Virus record (IMG/VR): IMGVR_UViG_3300009104_000101
Coordinates: 1 to 27,230 of that record
Source: a virus
Strand: one strand, 5' to 3'
DNA length: 27,230 nt
The position numbers and the translations under genes are program-made. The notes below the pieces were generated by a model, which was not told the DNA's origin, searched no databases, and was given only the letters and a program-made list of their open reading frames with translations. Below, piece after piece: positions 1-11,347 of this stretch (within the stretch, counting starts at the first letter, position 1; each line of letters starts with the position of its first letter).

Positions 1-461
1 TGGTATTTACCACTATGCTTTAAAAAGTATCTATGATTATCATATAGTTCATCTCTTTCTCTTTCTTTTTCCCAATGGAATACATATTCTAATCCTTTAA
101 CAGGTGAATTTGTAGCAGATAAACCTACATTGTTTTCGGTACCATCATAATATTGCGCACCTTTTACTTCATAATCATATCTAGCTAATTTACGTATACC
201 TATACCATATCTATAATCAAATTCATGATAAACAGTTCCATCTTCTACAACTGGAATATCATATAATCCACCGCTAGGATTAGTTCTTACGAAATAATCT
301 GGTACGTTTTCTTTTGGATTTTGCATATCACCAGCTACATAGATAGTACTATACTTAAATAATTCTTTATAAACATCTTTAAAGAATTTACCTTTTTCTT
401 TTTCTTGTCCACTTATATTAAATGTAATAAGTATACATAGGGCTAATAAAATTTGTCTCAT
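1..461 (-). CDS. Secreted phage protein with signal peptide, C-terminus cut by window edge
   Basis: An open frame starts with ATG at 461 and runs without a stop to base 1, giving 153 residues of an incomplete protein. The N-terminus (MRQILLALCILITFNISGQ) has a short basic start, a hydrophobic core at about residues 4 to 16 and a small/polar end, as in a Sec signal peptide; cleavage near residues 18-19 is plausible. The mature part is rich in Tyr, Asp and Gly (for example DYRYGIGIRKLARYDYEVKG at about residues 80-100), which suggests a beta-rich exported protein. I recall similar proteins in phages of marine Bacteroidota, but I know no established function. It starts 7 bases after the stop of the 77-residue gene and is the last gene of the visible operon. 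An A-rich leader with no Shine-Dalgarno precedes the ATG. Envelope targeting during lysis or superinfection exclusion are possibilities only. Confidence 0.75.
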   Translation of the reverse strand, partial: MRQILLALCILITFNISGQEKEKGKFFKDVYKELFKYSTIYVAGDMQNPKENVPDYFVRTNPSGGLYDIPVVEDGTVYHEFDYRYGIGIRKLARYDYEVKGAQYYDGTENNVGLSATNSPVKGLEYVFHWEKERERDELYDNHRYFLKHSGKY

Positions 462-468
462 GTTTGTT

Positions 469-702
469 TTATTTTTTAGTTTTTCTACCTTTACGCGCTT
501 TACCTTTTAAAGCATCGTCTATATCTCCAAGTTGATTGCCAACTTCTTTTACAGCATCAGCAACATCTTTAAGTTCTTGAGCTGTAAGTTTATATCTTTT
601 TTTAATTTCTTTTATTGTTGCGATAGCTTTTTCATCTACAGAAGTTTTACTCCATACATAATTCCACATATCTTTCCAATATTGTTTTGTTAATTTCCAC
701 AT
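469..702 (-). CDS. Small basic helical protein, unknown function
   Basis: This is a 77-residue protein with a Trp-rich N-terminus (W2, W9, W13, W17) followed by a predicted helical middle rich in Lys, Glu, Val and Asp, and a very basic tail ending KARKGRKTKK. It has no clear membrane-spanning segment, although the Trp-rich amphipathic start could lie against a membrane. It begins 4 bases after the stop of the giant virion protein gene and ends 7 bases before the secreted protein start, so it is co-transcribed with both. The start ATG is preceded by AAAAAGAAATAAAATT without Shine-Dalgarno. Comparable short proteins beside the last structural genes occur in marine Bacteroidota phages, to my recollection, but I do not recognise a characterised family. 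A lysis-related or minor virion role is a guess from position. Confidence 0.7.
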   Translation of the reverse strand: MWKLTKQYWKDMWNYVWSKTSVDEKAIATIKEIKKRYKLTAQELKDVADAVKEVGNQLGDIDDALKGKARKGRKTKK

Positions 703-706
703 AATT

Positions 707-3700
707 TTATTTCTTTTTAATTTTTACATAATATACTACAGTTCCTGCTGGGGACTCTAGTTCTACGATATCGTTAGAGTCAAAATCTTTTAAGTTCCTA
801 TACATAACCTTTTTATAACCCTGTGCTTTTAATTTTCTAATATCGTTTTTATAATCTACTTTGGCTTTTTCTTTTGCTTTTTCTTCTTGTTTAATAGTAC
901 TTTGTAATCCCCAATAAGGTAATCCTACGCTCCATGTATCCCATCCTAATACTAGAGCCACTCTTTGCCATGCTCTCGTTTCTTCATCCATCGCTGCTCT
1001 TAAGTTCATTGTCTTACGTAATACTCTATCTACGGGCAAATTAGTAGCTGCTGAAACCAATTGTGCTAAAGCTAAATAAGTAGGATTGTCTAAACTCCAC
1101 CCACGTTTTTGAATTTCTTCCATATTCCAATTAAATGTTTTAGCTGTTGTTCTTAGTTTACGTATTTTTGAATCTAAAACTGGCGAAAACCCAAATACCT
1201 CCCATACAGCTTCTTCATAATCTGGTGATTTCTTTTCATTTTCGCTGGCAACAACCATTGCTATATTTTTAACTGTAGATATTACGGCCCCGCCAAATCC
1301 AAGTCCAAATAATAAAGAGTCCGCCATCCCATTAAGAATTTTAGCTGCTCTAGTTTTCTCTTCTTCATCAGTTTCATCATCAAATAATAATGCAAATAAT
1401 GTTTGTTGTAAACTATGAAATACAATATTTTGTACAGTACTATAATATACAATTTGAGAAATATTACTTAAATCGCTTTCTCTTTGAGTCATACCAGGGT
1501 TTTTTCTCCTATTATATAAATCTCTAATAGATTTTTTCATTCTTCTATTATACTGCATTGTAACATTTTGGAATGATAATATAACCCTACCAGCTAGACT
1601 TGCTTGTTGCTGAGATATTTTACTTGGATTACTTGATTGCTGAGTTTCTTCTGATATAGCATAAAAATCATCAAATGCTTTTGCCTCTGCTTCTGCTTCT
1701 GTATATTTTTTACCGGTTTCTTGATTAATTCTTTTTAGATAAGTAGCTTTTCTATTAATAAAGAATGTAGCACCACCAGTGGCAATTGCTAAACTATCCA
1801 TTATTCGAGTTATAATAAATCCTTTATCTAATAAATAGTTAACCATTCCTTTAAATCCACCTTTTCTACCAGCATCTACAAGTTCAGCTTCATTAACATT
1901 GATTTTTAATCCATCACGCCTGTTAACTAGATAATCAGAATTTAGTAATTTTATTACAGTAGGGAAATAATCTTTACTAGCAAAAGCTTTAGCTGCTGCA
2001 TATATATTATTATCACCCCAATTAATAAAGTTAATATTAGAAATTAATTGAAGCAATCCTGATCTCATATTAACAAACATAATAGCCCCAACAGATCCAT
2101 TTAGCCAATCTAACATTTCATTTACTATTCTTGCACCACCGCCTTGATATACTGGTCTATTACTACCAGATTTCATTCTACGTAAACTATCTTTTAATGC
2201 ATCAACCCATTTCTTACCATATAGTGCTTCAAGCTTATTCATATTCTTATCTGAGAATATAATCTTAGTATTCTCATCAAATTCGGTCATTGCTTTTCTT
2301 CTAAAATTAGTGTCTATATCATTCATTAAATCTGTATCAATAGTGCCTGCTATCCAATTATCTCCTGGAGCTGGATATTGTTTGCTTTTTGCTATTAACA
2401 TAACATTATCAGCAAAACCCATTAGCTCTACATCATTTTCTACAGCCTTAACTAAAGCATTTTGATCACGCTTAGACAAACCGGGAATTTCCATACCTTG
2501 TTTAGTCCACATATATACTCTCATTGCTTGAGATTTGGTATAAGGGCCAACACCAATTTCATTCATTAAAGGATTATTTAATCCCTTAGATTTTAAAGAA
2601 GGATAAGCTTTTTTAAGTGCAGCAAAATCATTTGCAACTGCTACTTTAGCAGATAAAATTTCTTGCTCAGCCTTATTAAAAGGATCAATTAGGTTGTCTC
2701 TAATCCATTTAGCATGCCTATTCCCTTGTTCGCCATACCCCATTAAGTCATACATTAGCCCTAAGAAATCTTCAGCAGAAGGAGTTATAGTTAATTGATC
2801 GCCCAACCATTTAAAAAATCCTTTGTCTTTTTTCTTTCCTTCTAATCGAGCTCGAGTTTCAGAATATTCTGCTTGTGCTTTTAAACCAGTTGTTTCTTCT
2901 AGCATTTCATTAAACTCTTTATCAAGATTTATTTCTTTATCTGCTATAGCTTGTTGTACTTTAGATTTAACATCTACTTGATCTAAAATTTGCTTCACCG
3001 CTTTTACATTAGATAACTGGTCGTCAGCAAAATAAAAGTCATTGTATCCTTCTTTGGTTTTTTGTAATATCCAATCAGCTTTAGCTTGAGAGCTGCCATT
3101 TTCTAGTCCAATTATATTTTCTATTGGTATATTTAAACCTATACTATCTAAAAATAATTTTATATTTTGTGCCGATGCCTGTGGCCTAGCTGTAAGAATA
3201 TAGATATCACCACTTCCAAATTTATCTTGTCTACGTAAAGCTAAATCTGCTAATGGGCCTTTTTTAGCGCCCTTGACATCTTTAAATTGTGAAAAATCGA
3301 ATTCTGCTCCTTGTGCAGCTAATATATCTGCTTGCTCTGCAAACTGCGCTGGAGTTAATCTTCTTAATGTACCATCAGGCATTTTAACTAAAACTTGTTC
3401 TTTTGTTTTAGCTAATGTATCATCTAAATCAAATACACTAATGCCTTTTTTCTTTTTATTTACTTTCTGCGCATTTACTTGAGTATCTAAAGAGTTTTCT
3501 AAAGTTTCTTTTGTTTGTGTAGTTGTTTGGTCTTTATTTGTAATAGTGGGGGCTAATTTATTAATTTTCTTTTTAGCTTTCTTTTCAGATTCTATTACAG
3601 CATCAGGGGATCTTTCAATCATAACAAGGTTTTTCTGATTAACTGCCCCGTCATATCTTGATAAATTCTCTCCTGTTGTTTTCCTGCCTAATCCACCTTT

Positions 3701-6700
3701 TTCTTTAGTATCATTTAATTTTTTAGCCTCTTGCTTGCCTATAATATCTACATGACTTTCGTCTAATATTTCTCTTATTTGTTGTTTGGCACTTTCAACA
3801 TTCTGGTTTGTTTTTAATACATTTCTAATTTTTTCACGGATAGTTGCAATAGGGGGAGTATGCTCATATTCTACTTTTATATCACCGTTTTTATCTGCTT
3901 TAACATTGTCTTGTATAGACCTTATAGTTCCAACCATTCGTAAAGCAGAATCGCTAGCTCCACCCATTATATCTAATAACTGAATTGCTACATCTTGTTC
4001 GCCAGCTTCAATTAAATCCCCTAATGTTTCAACAATATAATTTTTAGCTTCAATAGAGTTTTTATCACTACTTGCAATATTGTCTTTTATATATTTAAGA
4101 GCTCCTTTTATACCACTTTTTTTATATATTTTTGCTATATTAGTTGGGGCATTAGAAGGTCTAAGTGGCCCAGTATTTATTAATTTTTCTCCATTTAATA
4201 AAATAGAACTTCTTTTGCCTTGTACAGAAAGCGTAAAGCCATAATCACTTAATTTAACACCAAGCTGTTTTTCCCAATATTTATAAGCAGCTTGGGCATT
4301 ATCACCTTGCCATAATTGATGAGCTTGTGTATTTTTTTGATAAGAAGTATTTATAAATTGTAAAAAGTTTTTTAGAATTATTTGTTTTGCATCATTTGAT
4401 ATATTCCTTCTTTTTAATAATTTTTTAATTCTATTAATTTCATAATCAGATACATTATTATATTTATCTTTAGCAACTTGGGCAAAAGCTTCATCAACTT
4501 TTTGTTGTACTATTTCATAATTATCAATATCTATTTCAGTAAGAGTACCAATTGTATTATCAACTATTTGTTCTTGCTTGATAGTTACTGCTATAAGGTC
4601 TTTTATTTGCTGGGCCCCTCGTTCTAGAGCTTGAACAAAAGATAAACCTTCTTGTAATGCGGCTTTAATTCCTCTTAAAAAAAGTACTATAGTTTGCCTC
4701 CCTGCTTCTAAAAACCCCATATTCATTCCTAATACATTAGGGTCGGCTTTTAATTTTTCTACAGTTTCTATACTTTTATCAATACCTTCAATTATTACAT
4801 CTAAAGATCTTTTTTCTTTAATTCTTCCATCATATGTTCTTTCTACTTCGTCAATAAACTCTTCTGCTGTCATTTCTACCCCAGCTTCTTCTAATGAAAT
4901 AGATAAATCCTTCATGAAATCTTTATCAGTTTTCATTTCTTGAAATTGTTCAATAGTTAATCCTTTTGCTAATAAATCTATAAAACTTCTACGGCCACTT
5001 TGATCTTTTGTATAAAAATCTATTAAAGCTTGTTTGTTTAATCCAGAAAGTTTATAAATCCCTGTTCCAGCTGCTGTTCCTTTTTCTCTACCTATTTTTT
5101 CTATATTAAACCCTTTAACAGTTTTAAACCTCTTTTTCATCGCAGCTATAGGAATAGTTTCTATATAGCCGTCATTTATAGCCTTTTTTATAAAATCATT
5201 CTGCGCTTTTACACTTTTCCCCATCGCCTTTCTTACTGCAGCTTTTGTTGCTTTATTTTGGGCTTTTAATTCTTTTGCAAGTGATGAAGGATCTAGTTTA
5301 GTAATTATTTTTTTACCTTTTCCCCCGATTTCTTTTACTTTACCCACAGAACTAGCTATAAATTGTTTTACGCTAGTTTTAATATTTGTTAAAATCTCTG
5401 GCCTAACATCAGCGGTTTGTTTTTCTATAGCTGCAATATCAGTAGGGTATTTTTTCTTTTCAAATTCTTTACCTTGAGTTTCTTGGGTTTCCTCAGCTTG
5501 AAGTTCCTGAGCCCTTTCATCCGACAAACGAGTTGATTTGCCTTTTTTATCTAATTGCTGTTCTGCCCCATAAAAAGCAGATTTTTTAGGTTTTATATTA
5601 GCGGTAATATATGTAGATAATGACCCCTTAGATGGATCCCAACCCTCTAATATTTGATTAAAATGTTTATTTACAAATGATACAGCATCCTCTCTTTTAA
5701 CAGTGCCTTTCTGGCTATCAAACCCTAAAGCTTTTAATGCAATTTTTTCATATTGATTTAATAAGCTTTCCATATTTGAAGTTCCAATATTGCCGTCTTT
5801 ATACTCTGTGCCTAAAGTATCAATATTTTCTCCCTTAGAGCCTGTAGGAACAATACCTTGGGCCACAGTGTCTCCTTCTAAACTTTTTGCCAATATATCT
5901 GCTTCTTGAATAATTTTCTCAATTTCAGCATCTACTTCTTTTTTCCTATTAATTTCAACAATACTTATTTGTTTATTATTAGTTTGCTTTATTTGATTTT
6001 CTAAATTTTTTTGTTCCATCAATAATTCAACTAATCTTTTCCTATCTCTAGCATTTACATGAATTGGAACTGTTAAACCAGCATTTCGTACATTTGAAAC
6101 TCTTTCTAATTCTTCTCTTTTTTGCTCTTTATTTAAATAAGGATCATTTTCAATTTCTTTTTTTAATTCTTTAAATAATGCTTCTACTGTTTTACTTGTT
6201 TTACTTTCAGGGTTTATTTTTAATTTAGAAACAATAGCTTTAGCTCTATTTGTATAAGACCCCATCATTATCCCAGCCATTTGGCTTTGCCCAAATAAAG
6301 CACCACCAGCAGTACCTACTCCCATTAATCTTCCTAATACCCATCCACCTTCTGCGCTTTCTAATATTTGATCAAAATCTATATTAGATGTAAAAGGATT
6401 TTCTTGACCTACAGCAGCATTTGTAAAACCTTGTTCTAACCAGTCCTGAAAGCCTTCAGTTCCCCATTCTTTCCATTGTCCTAATTTATAAACAGAAAAC
6501 CCAGTTACAGCATTTATTAAATATTTTTGGAATCCATTACGCATTAATGTTTTCATCGTAGGATTATCAAATACAAATCCTCCCATTTTACCACCAACTT
6601 TCGAAAATATTAAATCAGAGAAAAATTCACTACCCATTACTGATGCCCCAGCCCCTATAGCGGCTAATTGATCACCATATTTAGGATCTTGTAAAGCTTC

Positions 6701-9031
6701 AAAAAATTCTTGTGGGGTTATTTCTCTCCCGGCATATTTAGGATCATTTTGCATCTGTCTTCTTACGCCCTCCATATAAACACTACTATATGTCATAGCC
6801 CCTTGTATAGTAGCCCCTGCTGCCATTAATATTCCCCCAGACCACATAAGGCCGCTTGCCACAGGAGTAGCAATTCCTCCTGTTGCTACACTCATAGCTG
6901 TTCCTCCCGCCATTAACGCACTACCTAATAACGATGGTACCATGTGAGTAGCTTGATTAAGACCCATTCCTAAATGCTGCATAAACCCTTCAACACTTAA
7001 AAAATCCTCTGTAACTTCAAGTTTATTAAGTTTTGCTAATTCCCCATAAGCATCAATCATTTGGTCATAATCATTTAAGTTCGCCTCCATAGTTTCATTT
7101 AAATCTGACTCTCTTTGATCTAAAAACTCACCAACAGTTAAATCATCATCTCTAGTGCCTCTATAAGCAACTAAATATCTATTTAATTGTCCATTATTAT
7201 CAAGTTTTCTAGCTTCACCTACTTTCATATTTAAATCTAATCCAGCACCGCCTTCTAAAAAAGGGCCTCCTTTAATTTGTTGTTTAAGATTTTCTACAAC
7301 TCTATTTCTATTTTTTAATCTAGGAGCACGTAGACTTATTTCCATCTCATTCCAAAACTTCCCTTCATACCATACAGATTCTTTAAATTGAATAAAATTT
7401 TCATCTATATTGGCCTTCCCTCTTTCAAATTGTGGAATAGTTCTAAAAATATTTTCACCTCTTGCCCCACCTCTTATATTAGTAAATATACGTTTTGCAG
7501 CATCTATAATATTCATATCTTCCATGGAACTATAAATTTCCATTCTTTGGTCAATACTTTTTAACCTAGGATCATGCATTCTTGCATGACCTTTAAATAC
7601 ATCGGGCATTAACTTTTCAGCTATTACTCCATATTCTTTATATATTCTCGCTGCTTCGGGATTATCTATTAAAGCTTTTTGAAACTTTTTATTATATAAA
7701 TCTTGTACTGCTACTTGGTATTTTTCTACCATTAAGTTTAAATCTTCCTCAGAAGTTCTATTAGCAACCATTTCATTTATTTGATCGACTTTATTGTTAA
7801 ATTCTCGAACTAATGGATGATTACCAAATTCAGGATTACTTCTATACCACTTATCTTCACAATAAATACCCCATTTTTGACATTGCCCCTGCATCCAATC
7901 TACTCTTTTTTGCCATTCTTTATTTATATTTTCAATAAATTTAGGGTCTTCTATTTGCATTTTAAGCTCTGTAGCTTCTTGAGACAATAAATCATATTCT
8001 TCTTTATCTATACCATAATCGATATATTCTAATTCTAAATTATTTACTTCTGCAAGAAATTCCTCATTATTTTCAATTTCATTCCCAATATTTTTAGTTA
8101 GTTTAATAGTTCGGGGGTCTGCTTGATAAGCTTTATTAATAGCTTTTAAATATTCTTCTGTTATATAAGACTCTTTAGTTTTGGGATTGATTCCCTCTTT
8201 AATATCTTCAAATTTAGGCATAAATTGCATTACATGGGCTTTTGCCTCAGGGGTTGCTTCTACTATTTCAAATAACTTTTCAGCTGTAAGATCTATTTTG
8301 CCTGCTTGATAATCTATAAGAAGTTGTTTATTATCAATAATTTCTTCTTGGGTAATATATTCTTCAGAATTTTCTTTAATAAAATTTTGAATTTCTTTAT
8401 CATTATTTGCAATAGGACTTACAGTTAATGATTCTCCATTAGGTGCAGTAATTTTTATATCAGCATTAAGATTTCTATGTTTAATTTCAAATTCAAAATT
8501 AAGACCATTAAATTTATTATTTAAAATTTCTAATGCTTGTTCAGCCTCTGGCAACCCTTTTGCTCTAATTCCTCGAGCTTGATTTCTTTGAGTTAAATTA
8601 TTTGATAATCCTAATTCAGTTTCATAATCTATTTCAGCATCTATAACAATTCCACTTGGTTGTTTAGGTATAAATGCTATAGGAGAGGAAACATTATCAA
8701 TATTCTGCTGTGTAGCCTCAACATTAGGAGATCCATCTTTATTTAATATTGGGTTTTCAGCTATTTCTTGTTTACTATTTAAAGAATTATTTATTTGATT
8801 AATCCACGATTTATCTTCATAAATTTCTTTTTCTTGTGTTAAAGATATATTACTCCCGTCTACATTTACTGTATCTGAAACAGGTTCAATTTCTGCTTCA
8901 GTTTCCACTGGCGATTTTTCATTTCTTCTTTTATGTTCAGCTACAACTTTCTTTATTTCTTCTTCAGATTTTCCATCTAGTTCCATCTGGCGAATTATAT
9001 CTGCTAAGCTGTTCAATACTGCTAATGCCAT
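707..9031 (-). CDS. Giant virion-associated polyvalent/ejection protein with HAD phosphatase-like domain
   Basis: At 2774 residues this gene fills almost a third of the window. The N-terminal 650 residues are charged and mostly helical. Residues 690-755 form a Gly/Ala-rich hydrophobic stretch, with a second one near 895-925. Residues about 1085-1185 include WDPSKGSLSTYITANIKPK (W1131), resembling sigma-70 region 2. A conserved-looking EHTPP string sits at about 1723. Residues about 1860-2020 are a HAD hydrolase-like domain with motif I DLDDT (D1868, D1870), motif II ILTARP (T1947), motif III K1984 and motif IV FADDQ (D2003, D2004). More hydrophobic segments lie near 2305-2335, 2524-2550 and 2564-2600. 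Similar giant proteins occur late in structural operons of marine podoviruses. I infer that it is packed in the head and ejected with DNA, with the hydrophobic parts helping cross the envelope. No polymerase or lysozyme motif was seen. Confidence 0.85.
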   Translation of the reverse strand: MALAVLNSLADIIRQMELDGKSEEEIKKVVAEHKRRNEKSPVETEAEIEPVSDTVNVDGSNISLTQEKEIYEDKSWINQINNSLNSKQEIAENPILNKDGSPNVEATQQNIDNVSSPIAFIPKQPSGIVIDAEIDYETELGLSNNLTQRNQARGIRAKGLPEAEQALEILNNKFNGLNFEFEIKHRNLNADIKITAPNGESLTVSPIANNDKEIQNFIKENSEEYITQEEIIDNKQLLIDYQAGKIDLTAEKLFEIVEATPEAKAHVMQFMPKFEDIKEGINPKTKESYITEEYLKAINKAYQADPRTIKLTKNIGNEIENNEEFLAEVNNLELEYIDYGIDKEEYDLLSQEATELKMQIEDPKFIENINKEWQKRVDWMQGQCQKWGIYCEDKWYRSNPEFGNHPLVREFNNKVDQINEMVANRTSEEDLNLMVEKYQVAVQDLYNKKFQKALIDNPEAARIYKEYGVIAEKLMPDVFKGHARMHDPRLKSIDQRMEIYSSMEDMNIIDAAKRIFTNIRGGARGENIFRTIPQFERGKANIDENFIQFKESVWYEGKFWNEMEISLRAPRLKNRNRVVENLKQQIKGGPFLEGGAGLDLNMKVGEARKLDNNGQLNRYLVAYRGTRDDDLTVGEFLDQRESDLNETMEANLNDYDQMIDAYGELAKLNKLEVTEDFLSVEGFMQHLGMGLNQATHMVPSLLGSALMAGGTAMSVATGGIATPVASGLMWSGGILMAAGATIQGAMTYSSVYMEGVRRQMQNDPKYAGREITPQEFFEALQDPKYGDQLAAIGAGASVMGSEFFSDLIFSKVGGKMGGFVFDNPTMKTLMRNGFQKYLINAVTGFSVYKLGQWKEWGTEGFQDWLEQGFTNAAVGQENPFTSNIDFDQILESAEGGWVLGRLMGVGTAGGALFGQSQMAGIMMGSYTNRAKAIVSKLKINPESKTSKTVEALFKELKKEIENDPYLNKEQKREELERVSNVRNAGLTVPIHVNARDRKRLVELLMEQKNLENQIKQTNNKQISIVEINRKKEVDAEIEKIIQEADILAKSLEGDTVAQGIVPTGSKGENIDTLGTEYKDGNIGTSNMESLLNQYEKIALKALGFDSQKGTVKREDAVSFVNKHFNQILEGWDPSKGSLSTYITANIKPKKSAFYGAEQQLDKKGKSTRLSDERAQELQAEETQETQGKEFEKKKYPTDIAAIEKQTADVRPEILTNIKTSVKQFIASSVGKVKEIGGKGKKIITKLDPSSLAKELKAQNKATKAAVRKAMGKSVKAQNDFIKKAINDGYIETIPIAAMKKRFKTVKGFNIEKIGREKGTAAGTGIYKLSGLNKQALIDFYTKDQSGRRSFIDLLAKGLTIEQFQEMKTDKDFMKDLSISLEEAGVEMTAEEFIDEVERTYDGRIKEKRSLDVIIEGIDKSIETVEKLKADPNVLGMNMGFLEAGRQTIVLFLRGIKAALQEGLSFVQALERGAQQIKDLIAVTIKQEQIVDNTIGTLTEIDIDNYEIVQQKVDEAFAQVAKDKYNNVSDYEINRIKKLLKRRNISNDAKQIILKNFLQFINTSYQKNTQAHQLWQGDNAQAAYKYWEKQLGVKLSDYGFTLSVQGKRSSILLNGEKLINTGPLRPSNAPTNIAKIYKKSGIKGALKYIKDNIASSDKNSIEAKNYIVETLGDLIEAGEQDVAIQLLDIMGGASDSALRMVGTIRSIQDNVKADKNGDIKVEYEHTPPIATIREKIRNVLKTNQNVESAKQQIREILDESHVDIIGKQEAKKLNDTKEKGGLGRKTTGENLSRYDGAVNQKNLVMIERSPDAVIESEKKAKKKINKLAPTITNKDQTTTQTKETLENSLDTQVNAQKVNKKKKGISVFDLDDTLAKTKEQVLVKMPDGTLRRLTPAQFAEQADILAAQGAEFDFSQFKDVKGAKKGPLADLALRRQDKFGSGDIYILTARPQASAQNIKLFLDSIGLNIPIENIIGLENGSSQAKADWILQKTKEGYNDFYFADDQLSNVKAVKQILDQVDVKSKVQQAIADKEINLDKEFNEMLEETTGLKAQAEYSETRARLEGKKKDKGFFKWLGDQLTITPSAEDFLGLMYDLMGYGEQGNRHAKWIRDNLIDPFNKAEQEILSAKVAVANDFAALKKAYPSLKSKGLNNPLMNEIGVGPYTKSQAMRVYMWTKQGMEIPGLSKRDQNALVKAVENDVELMGFADNVMLIAKSKQYPAPGDNWIAGTIDTDLMNDIDTNFRRKAMTEFDENTKIIFSDKNMNKLEALYGKKWVDALKDSLRRMKSGSNRPVYQGGGARIVNEMLDWLNGSVGAIMFVNMRSGLLQLISNINFINWGDNNIYAAAKAFASKDYFPTVIKLLNSDYLVNRRDGLKINVNEAELVDAGRKGGFKGMVNYLLDKGFIITRIMDSLAIATGGATFFINRKATYLKRINQETGKKYTEAEAEAKAFDDFYAISEETQQSSNPSKISQQQASLAGRVILSFQNVTMQYNRRMKKSIRDLYNRRKNPGMTQRESDLSNISQIVYYSTVQNIVFHSLQQTLFALLFDDETDEEEKTRAAKILNGMADSLLFGLGFGGAVISTVKNIAMVVASENEKKSPDYEEAVWEVFGFSPVLDSKIRKLRTTAKTFNWNMEEIQKRGWSLDNPTYLALAQLVSAATNLPVDRVLRKTMNLRAAMDEETRAWQRVALVLGWDTWSVGLPYWGLQSTIKQEEKAKEKAKVDYKNDIRKLKAQGYKKVMYRNLKDFDSNDIVELESPAGTVVYYVKIKKK

Positions 9032-10867: not shown

Positions 10868-11347
10868 TTATTGTTTTAATTGTTTTTGATTTGCTATAAA
10901 TTTATCAAATTCTTCATAATTAATAGCTATATTTTCTTCTTCTATTTTTTCTAAATCTTTTTTATTATCTTTATTTAAATGGACAGTTGTCCAAATTAAT
11001 TCAGTTTTAGCATATACTGCTCTTTTTACCCCTGGCGGGGAAATAAAAGAACAAGGACCTTTTAATTCTTTAATTCCTCCATTTTCAGTTGCCACTATTG
11101 CTTCTCCTTTTAATAAGAAAGCTGGATGTTCATGTTTATGTATTTTGCCTATAACCACTACACCTGCTGGAACTGTTAATTCTCTAACATACATTCCTTC
11201 AGAAAACAAATGTTTTACTGGGAAATCTTCTGGTACCATTATATATTCTTTATCTAAACTTTTAATTTTATCTTCAAGATTTATTATTTGAGATCTAAAT
11301 TTTTTGTTAGATAAGTTGTGATTCTTTTTCAAATCTACTTTATCCAT
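10868..11347 (-). CDS. Cupin-fold protein encoded within the tail gene cluster
   Basis: This 159-residue protein has a helical N-terminus (1-40), a cupin-like beta barrel at about residues 43-124 and a charged helical C-terminus. Cupin motif 1 is recognisable as GKIHKHEHPAFLLKGEA, with H70, H72 and H74 as possible metal ligands. Motif 2 is seen as GPCSFISPPGVKR, where the usual motif-2 histidine is replaced by Arg, and a further histidine lies in TTVHLN near residue 123. The metal site is therefore non-canonical, or the barrel may serve only as a structural or binding fold. Small cupin proteins are common beside structural genes in marine phages, to my recollection, but their role is not established. 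It lies 10 bases after the 492-residue tail gene and 4 bases before the ejection protein gene, arguing for late expression and a virion or assembly role. Confidence 0.8.
   Translation of the reverse strand: MDKVDLKKNHNLSNKKFRSQIINLEDKIKSLDKEYIMVPEDFPVKHLFSEGMYVRELTVPAGVVVIGKIHKHEHPAFLLKGEAIVATENGGIKELKGPCSFISPPGVKRAVYAKTELIWTTVHLNKDNKKDLEKIEEENIAINYEEFDKFIANQKQLKQ

Follow-up and report, generated by a model that had tools for sequence, protein, structure and literature searches.

A probable outer-membrane beta-barrel family in a putative late envelope module of marine Bacteroidota-type phages

The stretch of DNA analyzed here (27,230 bases, a single virus record; the window, below) ends on its left within a minus-strand gene whose product, OMP, represents a widespread family so far without a name. 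On the best reading of the data, OMP is a barrel family in a late envelope module of a marine Bacteroidota-type phage. A conserved signal peptide suggests that the protein is probably exported, a structure prediction places it, probably, in the host outer membrane as a beta-barrel, and comparison of gene neighborhoods links its gene to a pair of genes for small envelope proteins, TMcc and TRX, and to endolysins. Our favored explanation, to which we give slightly less than even chances, is that OMP forms the outer-membrane component of a late module that acts on the envelope at lysis. That a phage encodes its own outer-membrane protein is not without precedent, Lom of phage lambda being one example.

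The phage and its gene row

The terminase (phrog_6681, E 5e-125), the portal (phrog_6547, E 2e-142) and a structural protein matching phrog_13704 (E 3.5e-83), which we take for the major capsid protein, are encoded on the minus strand of the window, together with further virion genes and a giant protein. By terminase and capsid protein, the closest deposited relatives are the uncultured podovirus record MW202828 (67.6% and 48.2%, respectively) and Flavobacterium 'elemo', Cellulophaga and Maribacter phages. The giant protein (GIANT, 2774 aa; 707..9031, minus strand), presumably virion-associated, precedes OMP in loci of the window type and is present in 68 of the 116 loci whose neighborhoods were compared. 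Its residues 1853-2039 weakly match phage polynucleotide kinase (phrog_415, E 5.9e-05), and GIANT could be an ejected polyvalent protein. Directly upstream of OMP, with a gap of 7 nt, lies a 77-aa gene without a signal peptide (469..702, minus strand), by eye kin of a neighbor cluster (c14) found at varying positions in 20 of the 116 loci; the mechanical clustering missed the copy in the window. Elsewhere in the row, a 159-aa protein (10868..11347, minus strand) matches the short tail fibre/adhesin families phrog_12032 (E 2.5e-41) and phrog_24280 (E 1.6e-28); Pfam gives it just a faint cupin match.

The OMP open reading frame (3..461, minus strand) starts with the ATG at 461 and runs free of stops to the left end of the window, encoding 153 residues that begin MRQILLALCILITFNISGQEK; judging from relatives and structure prediction, these are the 5' 153 codons of a gene with about 245 more codons past the contig end. 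Recovery of the full gene from a longer contig had been proposed; a close relative, L005, 96% identical to the window protein over the shared part, encodes 396 aa. The body of the protein had been described as rich in Tyr, Asp and Gly, which holds for Tyr (11.9% vs 4.2% in the other 13 large window ORFs) and is a mild enrichment for Gly (8.9% vs 7.0%) and Asp (7.4% vs 6.1%). Its placement at the end of the structural operon did not survive comparison with relatives, in which the same strand continues with the TMcc/TRX pair and mostly then with an endolysin, the latter in most of those loci that have enough DNA.

Relatives of OMP were found in 35 of 41 stretches picked up by a pattern scan of IMG/VR viral contigs, with a closed gene in 28 of the 36 loci of the first scan (own locus included), and in 419 of 457 stretches from a profile scan of IMG/VR, of which 80 were retained. 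Measured from mechanical start codons, the 156 closed relatives span 357-447 aa, with most at 389-434. Among nine close copies compared over the 459-base fragment, dN/dS lies between 0.05 and 0.24 in all 36 pairs; by this sequence measure the gene is real and under purifying selection.

Export signal

The earlier proposal of an exported protein with a signal peptide is borne out by the family as a whole. The predicted signal peptide comprises residues 1-18 (MRQILLALCILITFNISG; 408..461, minus strand), with cleavage before Gln19. The N-terminus of OMP is the most hydrophobic among 15 window ORFs (Kyte-Doolittle 3.23 vs 1.94 for the next, as the 10-residue mean starting at residue 4), and the hydrophobic stretch is followed by ..NISG|Q. 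Across the signal-peptide region of a 26-row alignment of the family, M1 and Q19 are the only invariant positions. A small residue plus Gln ends the hydrophobic stretch in 147 of the 156 closed relatives (130 of 139 unique sequences), the remaining nine having V-x-A followed by K, N, D or E; eight of these nine share the start MKKLMTIL. The residue after the cleavage site is therefore Q or K/N/D/E and never Cys, and homologues lacking a signal peptide, which would have spoken against export, did not occur among the 156. According to the available text of PMC5837995, Gln directly after the signal peptidase I (SPI) site is a Bacteroidota-specific 'Q-rule', with a mean Q-value of 71% across species. 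OMP has the features of a Bacteroidota Sec/SPI substrate under this rule, and the conserved residue both supports export and indicates a Bacteroidota host.

If the N-terminal helix were no signal peptide, OMP could be a virion component, as its position in one gene row with virion genes might suggest; the prevalence of the Q-rule residue, together with the predicted barrel fold described below, makes this highly improbable.

Predicted barrel fold

A beta-barrel prediction had been proposed as a check on the envelope assignment. The AlphaFold2 model of L005, computed from 52 sequences, is a barrel of about 12 strands (pLDDT 75.4, pTM 0.68); an earlier model from 26 sequences was poor (pLDDT 64.5). 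The 51 other sequences in the alignment are 31-78% identical to L005 (minimum 29% by BLAST). Residues 39-153 of the window protein (3..347, minus strand) correspond to residues 37-151 of L005, which is without two residues after Gln19, and cover the start of the predicted barrel, strands b1-b4. Assuming a periplasmic N-terminus, the long connections of the model (34, 91 and 39 residues) share one side; the turns on the opposite side are short, bar one of 31 residues, much at low confidence.

Structure comparison agrees with an outer-membrane barrel. The 12 PDB chains found by Foldseek at E <= 0.001 are outer-membrane proteins or BAM complexes, with query TM-scores of 0.19-0.30, and scores by query length are 0.17-0.30 over the 50 matches listed. 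The 50 matches listed by VIA-align 2 are outer-membrane barrels, including 5ayw, whose title says merely 'membrane complex' and which we take to be one; the best is CymA (Z 11.7, rmsd 6.0, 212 aligned residues). Many barrels reach Z 9-12, and query TM-scores stay at 0.17-0.30, so that the fold class alone is supported and no particular porin family (CymA, OmpG, NanC or Tsx). In the viral fold library (BFVD) one clear relative stands out, the unnamed viral protein A0A516LKJ4 of 342 aa (Foldseek E 1.8e-28, TM 0.69/0.79, 24% identity over 402 columns).

Like OMP, the Lom/Ail proteins, lambda Lom among them, combine a phage-encoded outer-membrane barrel with a location near late genes. They are, however, 8-strand barrels of about 200 aa, compared with about 12 predicted strands and 396 aa in OMP, and their family is not among the five Pfam families touched by any of 26 OMP members at E <= 1, which places OMP outside Lom/Ail as judged by sequence family. 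A different role for a barrel would be that of a porin or uptake channel, adding a pore to a starving host and so feeding the infection. The diffusion channels CymA, OmpG and NanC are among the best structural matches, and proteins of uncultured Caudovirales named porin turn up in the search of the viral fold library. We nevertheless consider this role rather unlikely, since the gene is linked to lysis and not to metabolic genes and, within the limits of a two-pattern scan of genome contigs and a search of 395 genomes, no homologue on a bacterial chromosome was found to suggest transport.

Distribution of the family

Sequence searches leave OMP without a named relative. Neither Pfam (best E 0.034) nor PHROGs (best E 0.024) gave anything significant for 26 members, NCBIfam had no significant match to three members, no PDB sequence matched the OMP profile (A1) at E <= 1, tblastn of 50,697 deposited phage records found no OMP apart from one match at E 6, and searches of the open-licence PMC literature listed no paper on the family.

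Acquisition of the gene from a host was considered and rejected: the genome-contig scan and the class search found OMP only on phage-like contigs. The former, with two short peptide patterns, gave seven relatives among 103 stretches, on MAG contigs labeled Woesearchaeota, Maricaulis, Alphaproteobacteria and Bacteroidetes, all seven with GIANT, TMcc, TRX or a Peptidase M15 (M15) endolysin nearby. The latter covered 395 genomes from the class to which the L039-bearing Bacteroidetes MAG belongs, an even draw from a larger group with four candidates per genome scored among the matches listed, and returned one OMP, in that same MAG. We read the OMP-bearing MAG contigs as misbinned phage contigs; distant homologues in hosts may still exist. 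The Woesearchaeota-labeled G002 has five OMP matches and the Maricaulis-labeled G003 three, on different contigs and some of them partial; these bins appear to have gathered several phage contigs.

The idea that OMP is a cassette carried by unrelated phages was likewise discarded, as the window-type terminase (TerL) and capsid protein are present in all but one of the 17 records or genomes that were sampled. The seven records with a 'holin-type' layout have TerL 70-74% identical to the window type. By terminase and capsid sequences, then, most layouts of the OMP locus belong to one phage group. Truly distant carriers exist and are few: TerL identity falls to 34-35% in L142 and L144 and to 27%, over part of the protein, in L170 (a 115 kb contig), and L139 (82 kb) carries OMP with no match to window-type TerL. 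Eight more OMP records without a TerL match are fragments of 14-32 kb and thus little informative. In the record of locus L155 (G425, 28873-30559) the terminase match is in four pieces, three with internal stops, which an intron, a frameshift or a faulty assembly could explain.

Conserved neighbors

Up to 10 genes per side were clustered in 116 OMP loci, own locus included and a few contigs duplicated. TMcc, a one-helix membrane protein of about 95 aa with its helix from about residue 17, occurs in 99 of them, TRX, an exported protein with a thioredoxin fold, in 96, a Peptidase M15 endolysin in 79 and a holin-like gene, one member of which matches phrog_3427 (E 1.6e-19), in 40; in many loci a neighbor is missing because the contig ends too soon. 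Among unique OMP genes flanked on each side by 3 kb or more of sequence, all 85 have TMcc and TRX within seven genes, in a set that includes loci found via TMcc. A scan for TMcc alone found TRX in 78 of 79 loci and OMP in 53; when 11 stretches whose contigs had been collected for OMP are left out, the counts are 67 and 42 of 68.

The three genes come in two orders, OMP-TMcc-TRX and TMcc-TRX-OMP, and are closely packed, with overlaps or gaps of at most 10 nt between OMP and TMcc (54/54), TRX and OMP (48/48), TMcc and TRX (204/205) and OMP and M15 (23/29). A small exported protein found beside OMP in 22 of the 116 loci, exp75, also nearly touches its neighbors; between GIANT and OMP the median gap is 49 nt. 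With the order TMcc-TRX-OMP, an endolysin lies within three genes downstream in 51 of 54 cases with sufficient flanking DNA (46 Peptidase M15, 5 Amidase_2, 3 none) and is the immediately following gene in 34 of 59; with OMP-TMcc-TRX, 41 of 47 have an M15 endolysin no more than 10 genes away and six have none. Examples of both endolysin families were confirmed by Pfam or PHROG. As far as gene order can tell, OMP stays close to endolysins even when the endolysin switches between two unrelated families.

Several additional features of these regions deserve mention. In L147 (901-1536), TMcc and TRX read as a single 211-aa ORF, either a natural fusion or a frame artefact; if real, the fusion bears on the topology of the pair. 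In L184, two TMcc-TRX copies flank OMP. Another OMP-bearing phage contig, L025, encodes a chaperonin Cpn60 (1506-3146; Pfam E 4e-66) and, at 3468-3725, what we take from its motif to be a small co-chaperonin. A conserved ORF of 45-47 aa (MDFSIILLLPNG...; cluster 28) immediately precedes the holin-like gene in 11 of the 116 loci (for example L064:5740-5883, L071:9637-9780 and L191:7036-7173), with a similar form in loci without OMP. In 30 of the 116 loci there are genes for exported proteins or lipoproteins carrying a DKxxHF-like motif (L014:4417-4755 and cluster LP8); those that precede OMP often overlap its mechanical start.

TMcc has more K/R on the N-side of its helix in 101 of 162 sequences, fewer in 22 and equal numbers in 39; its N-terminus is predicted to be inside and its bulk periplasmic. 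A coiled coil is possible, from a heptad count made without a control. Its single N-terminal helix and possible coiled coil, and the place of the module near endolysin and holin genes, recall the two-component Rz/Rz1 spanins, of which the inner-membrane partner has an N-terminal transmembrane helix and a periplasmic coiled coil and the outer-membrane partner is a small lipoprotein. Spanin families, when compared with TMcc, gave no match, and OMP, a predicted barrel of 396 aa with no Cys at its cleavage site, differs from an outer-membrane spanin; a spanin-like action is not contradicted by this.

The thioredoxin fold of TRX is recognized by Pfam in the L007 protein (Thioredoxin, E 5.1e-07); TRX of L025, a short form, gave no Pfam match. 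The Q-rule Gln is present in 96 of 96 TRX sequences, and a CxxC beyond residue 20 in 0 of 96, so that TRX does not qualify as an active thioredoxin or Dsb protein. Its last residue was compared in 165 unique flank-checked copies, including those of the second TMcc scan, a set partly chosen by OMP. Where OMP is present, TRX ends in Phe in 121 of 125 copies, in Tyr in three and in another residue in one (L184); where OMP is absent, 0 of 40 end in Phe or Tyr. We do not regard the terminal Phe as proof of contact, since a tree of 162 rows shows essentially one split (two changes for OMP, one for the TRX tail and one supported independent pair), which leaves the correlation without statistical force; a Fisher p of 2e-21, which ignores relatedness, was set aside. 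By sequence the association appears old and constant, and is suggestive only. Among tree rows that have OMP, the layout around the gene (giant protein or holin nearby) changed three times. Sequence distances of OMP correlate only weakly with those of TRX (Spearman 0.25) and TMcc (0.20), and more with those of M15 (0.44); OMP partners thus seem to have been re-paired, unlike what tight co-evolution would produce.

A possible role at lysis or in exclusion

An envelope function had been proposed for OMP in the form of superinfection exclusion, outer-membrane disruption for lysis or masking of the receptor. The signal peptide and predicted barrel support the general assignment; they do not choose among the three. 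In the explanation we favor, action at lysis, the gene row that runs from structural to lysis genes would yield OMP late in infection. The host Sec pathway would export the protein, signal peptidase I would cleave it ahead of Gln19, and host BAM would fold it into the outer membrane, its three long loops (about 34, 91 and 39 residues) facing outside. It would work with TMcc, as a small inner-membrane protein, and TRX, periplasmic and lacking CxxC, so that the phage would supply one protein per envelope layer. After the endolysin has cut the wall, these proteins would weaken or open the outer membrane, a step that spanins carry out in coliphages. We infer the late timing, the contact among the three proteins and the action at lysis from the constant neighbors of OMP, namely TMcc, TRX and an endolysin, joined in some layouts by a holin-like gene. 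Conserved proximity to endolysins of two unrelated families leans toward a lysis-stage role.

Copies of the pair without OMP provide a counterweight. They make up 40 of the 165 flank-checked unique TMcc-TRX copies; 23 of the 40 have an endolysin within five genes downstream and 17 do not. OMP is therefore dispensable to the pair, and in those phages lysis would proceed without it, which counts against the lysis reading and leaves room for exclusion or masking. Lipoprotein genes, recognized by a simple motif, lie nearby in 10 of 40 loci without OMP vs 8 of 50 with it (p 0.30); the difference is not significant, and no outer-membrane spanin replacing OMP was seen.

Such an accessory distribution is expected if OMP serves in superinfection exclusion or receptor masking, where OMP and its partners would block, in infected cells, the receptor that the phage itself uses and would also keep released progeny from sticking to debris, in the manner of Cor and Llp of coliphages T1 and T5. 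In one type of locus OMP lies between fibre-like genes, labeled by eye, and lysis genes. The T1 cassette, as described in the available text of PMC13164509, comprises three genes, for an outer membrane protein, a membrane associated protein and Cor, directly after a tail protein gene, and Llp of T5 is a periplasmic lipoprotein that jams FhuA (PMC9586334, available text). The likeness lies in a few phage-made, envelope-directed proteins, set beside a tail gene in T1. A weak match of exp75 to Cor (4 of 9 members, best E 3.8e-04) seemed to strengthen it; the similarity is mainly in the signal peptide (hhalign residues 1-43, 64% probability), however, and kinship of exp75 with Cor was rejected on that ground. 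The other two proteins of the T1 cassette, gp31 and gp32, gave no sign of kinship with OMP (hhalign 0.1-0.2%), and Cor and Llp are small lipoproteins, whereas OMP is a 396-aa protein of SPI type in which the lipobox Cys is absent. Moreover, T1 Cor is reported to act early (PMC13164509) and the T1 lysis genes lie about 13 kb from the cassette, whereas the OMP gene stands among structural and lysis genes, with endolysins among its constant neighbors. On balance exclusion or masking is a possible but doubtful role, and action at lysis is the explanation we prefer.

A more specific and more speculative version of the lysis explanation, which we think improbable as it stands, is a three-layer device in which TMcc with a periplasmic coiled coil, a redox-dead TRX serving as linker and OMP would open the outer membrane instead of a spanin, the C-terminal aromatic residue of TRX docking on OMP.

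Implications

Little is known of how phages of Bacteroidota breach or modify the outer membrane; the available text of a flavophage survey names spanins in two of the isolates only (PMC8776804). If OMP acts at lysis, it would represent a new route past the outer membrane, and the three-layer device, if true, would be a previously undescribed one in abundant marine Bacteroidota phages. If OMP instead blocks receptors, it would shape co-infection by phages of abundant ocean bacteria.
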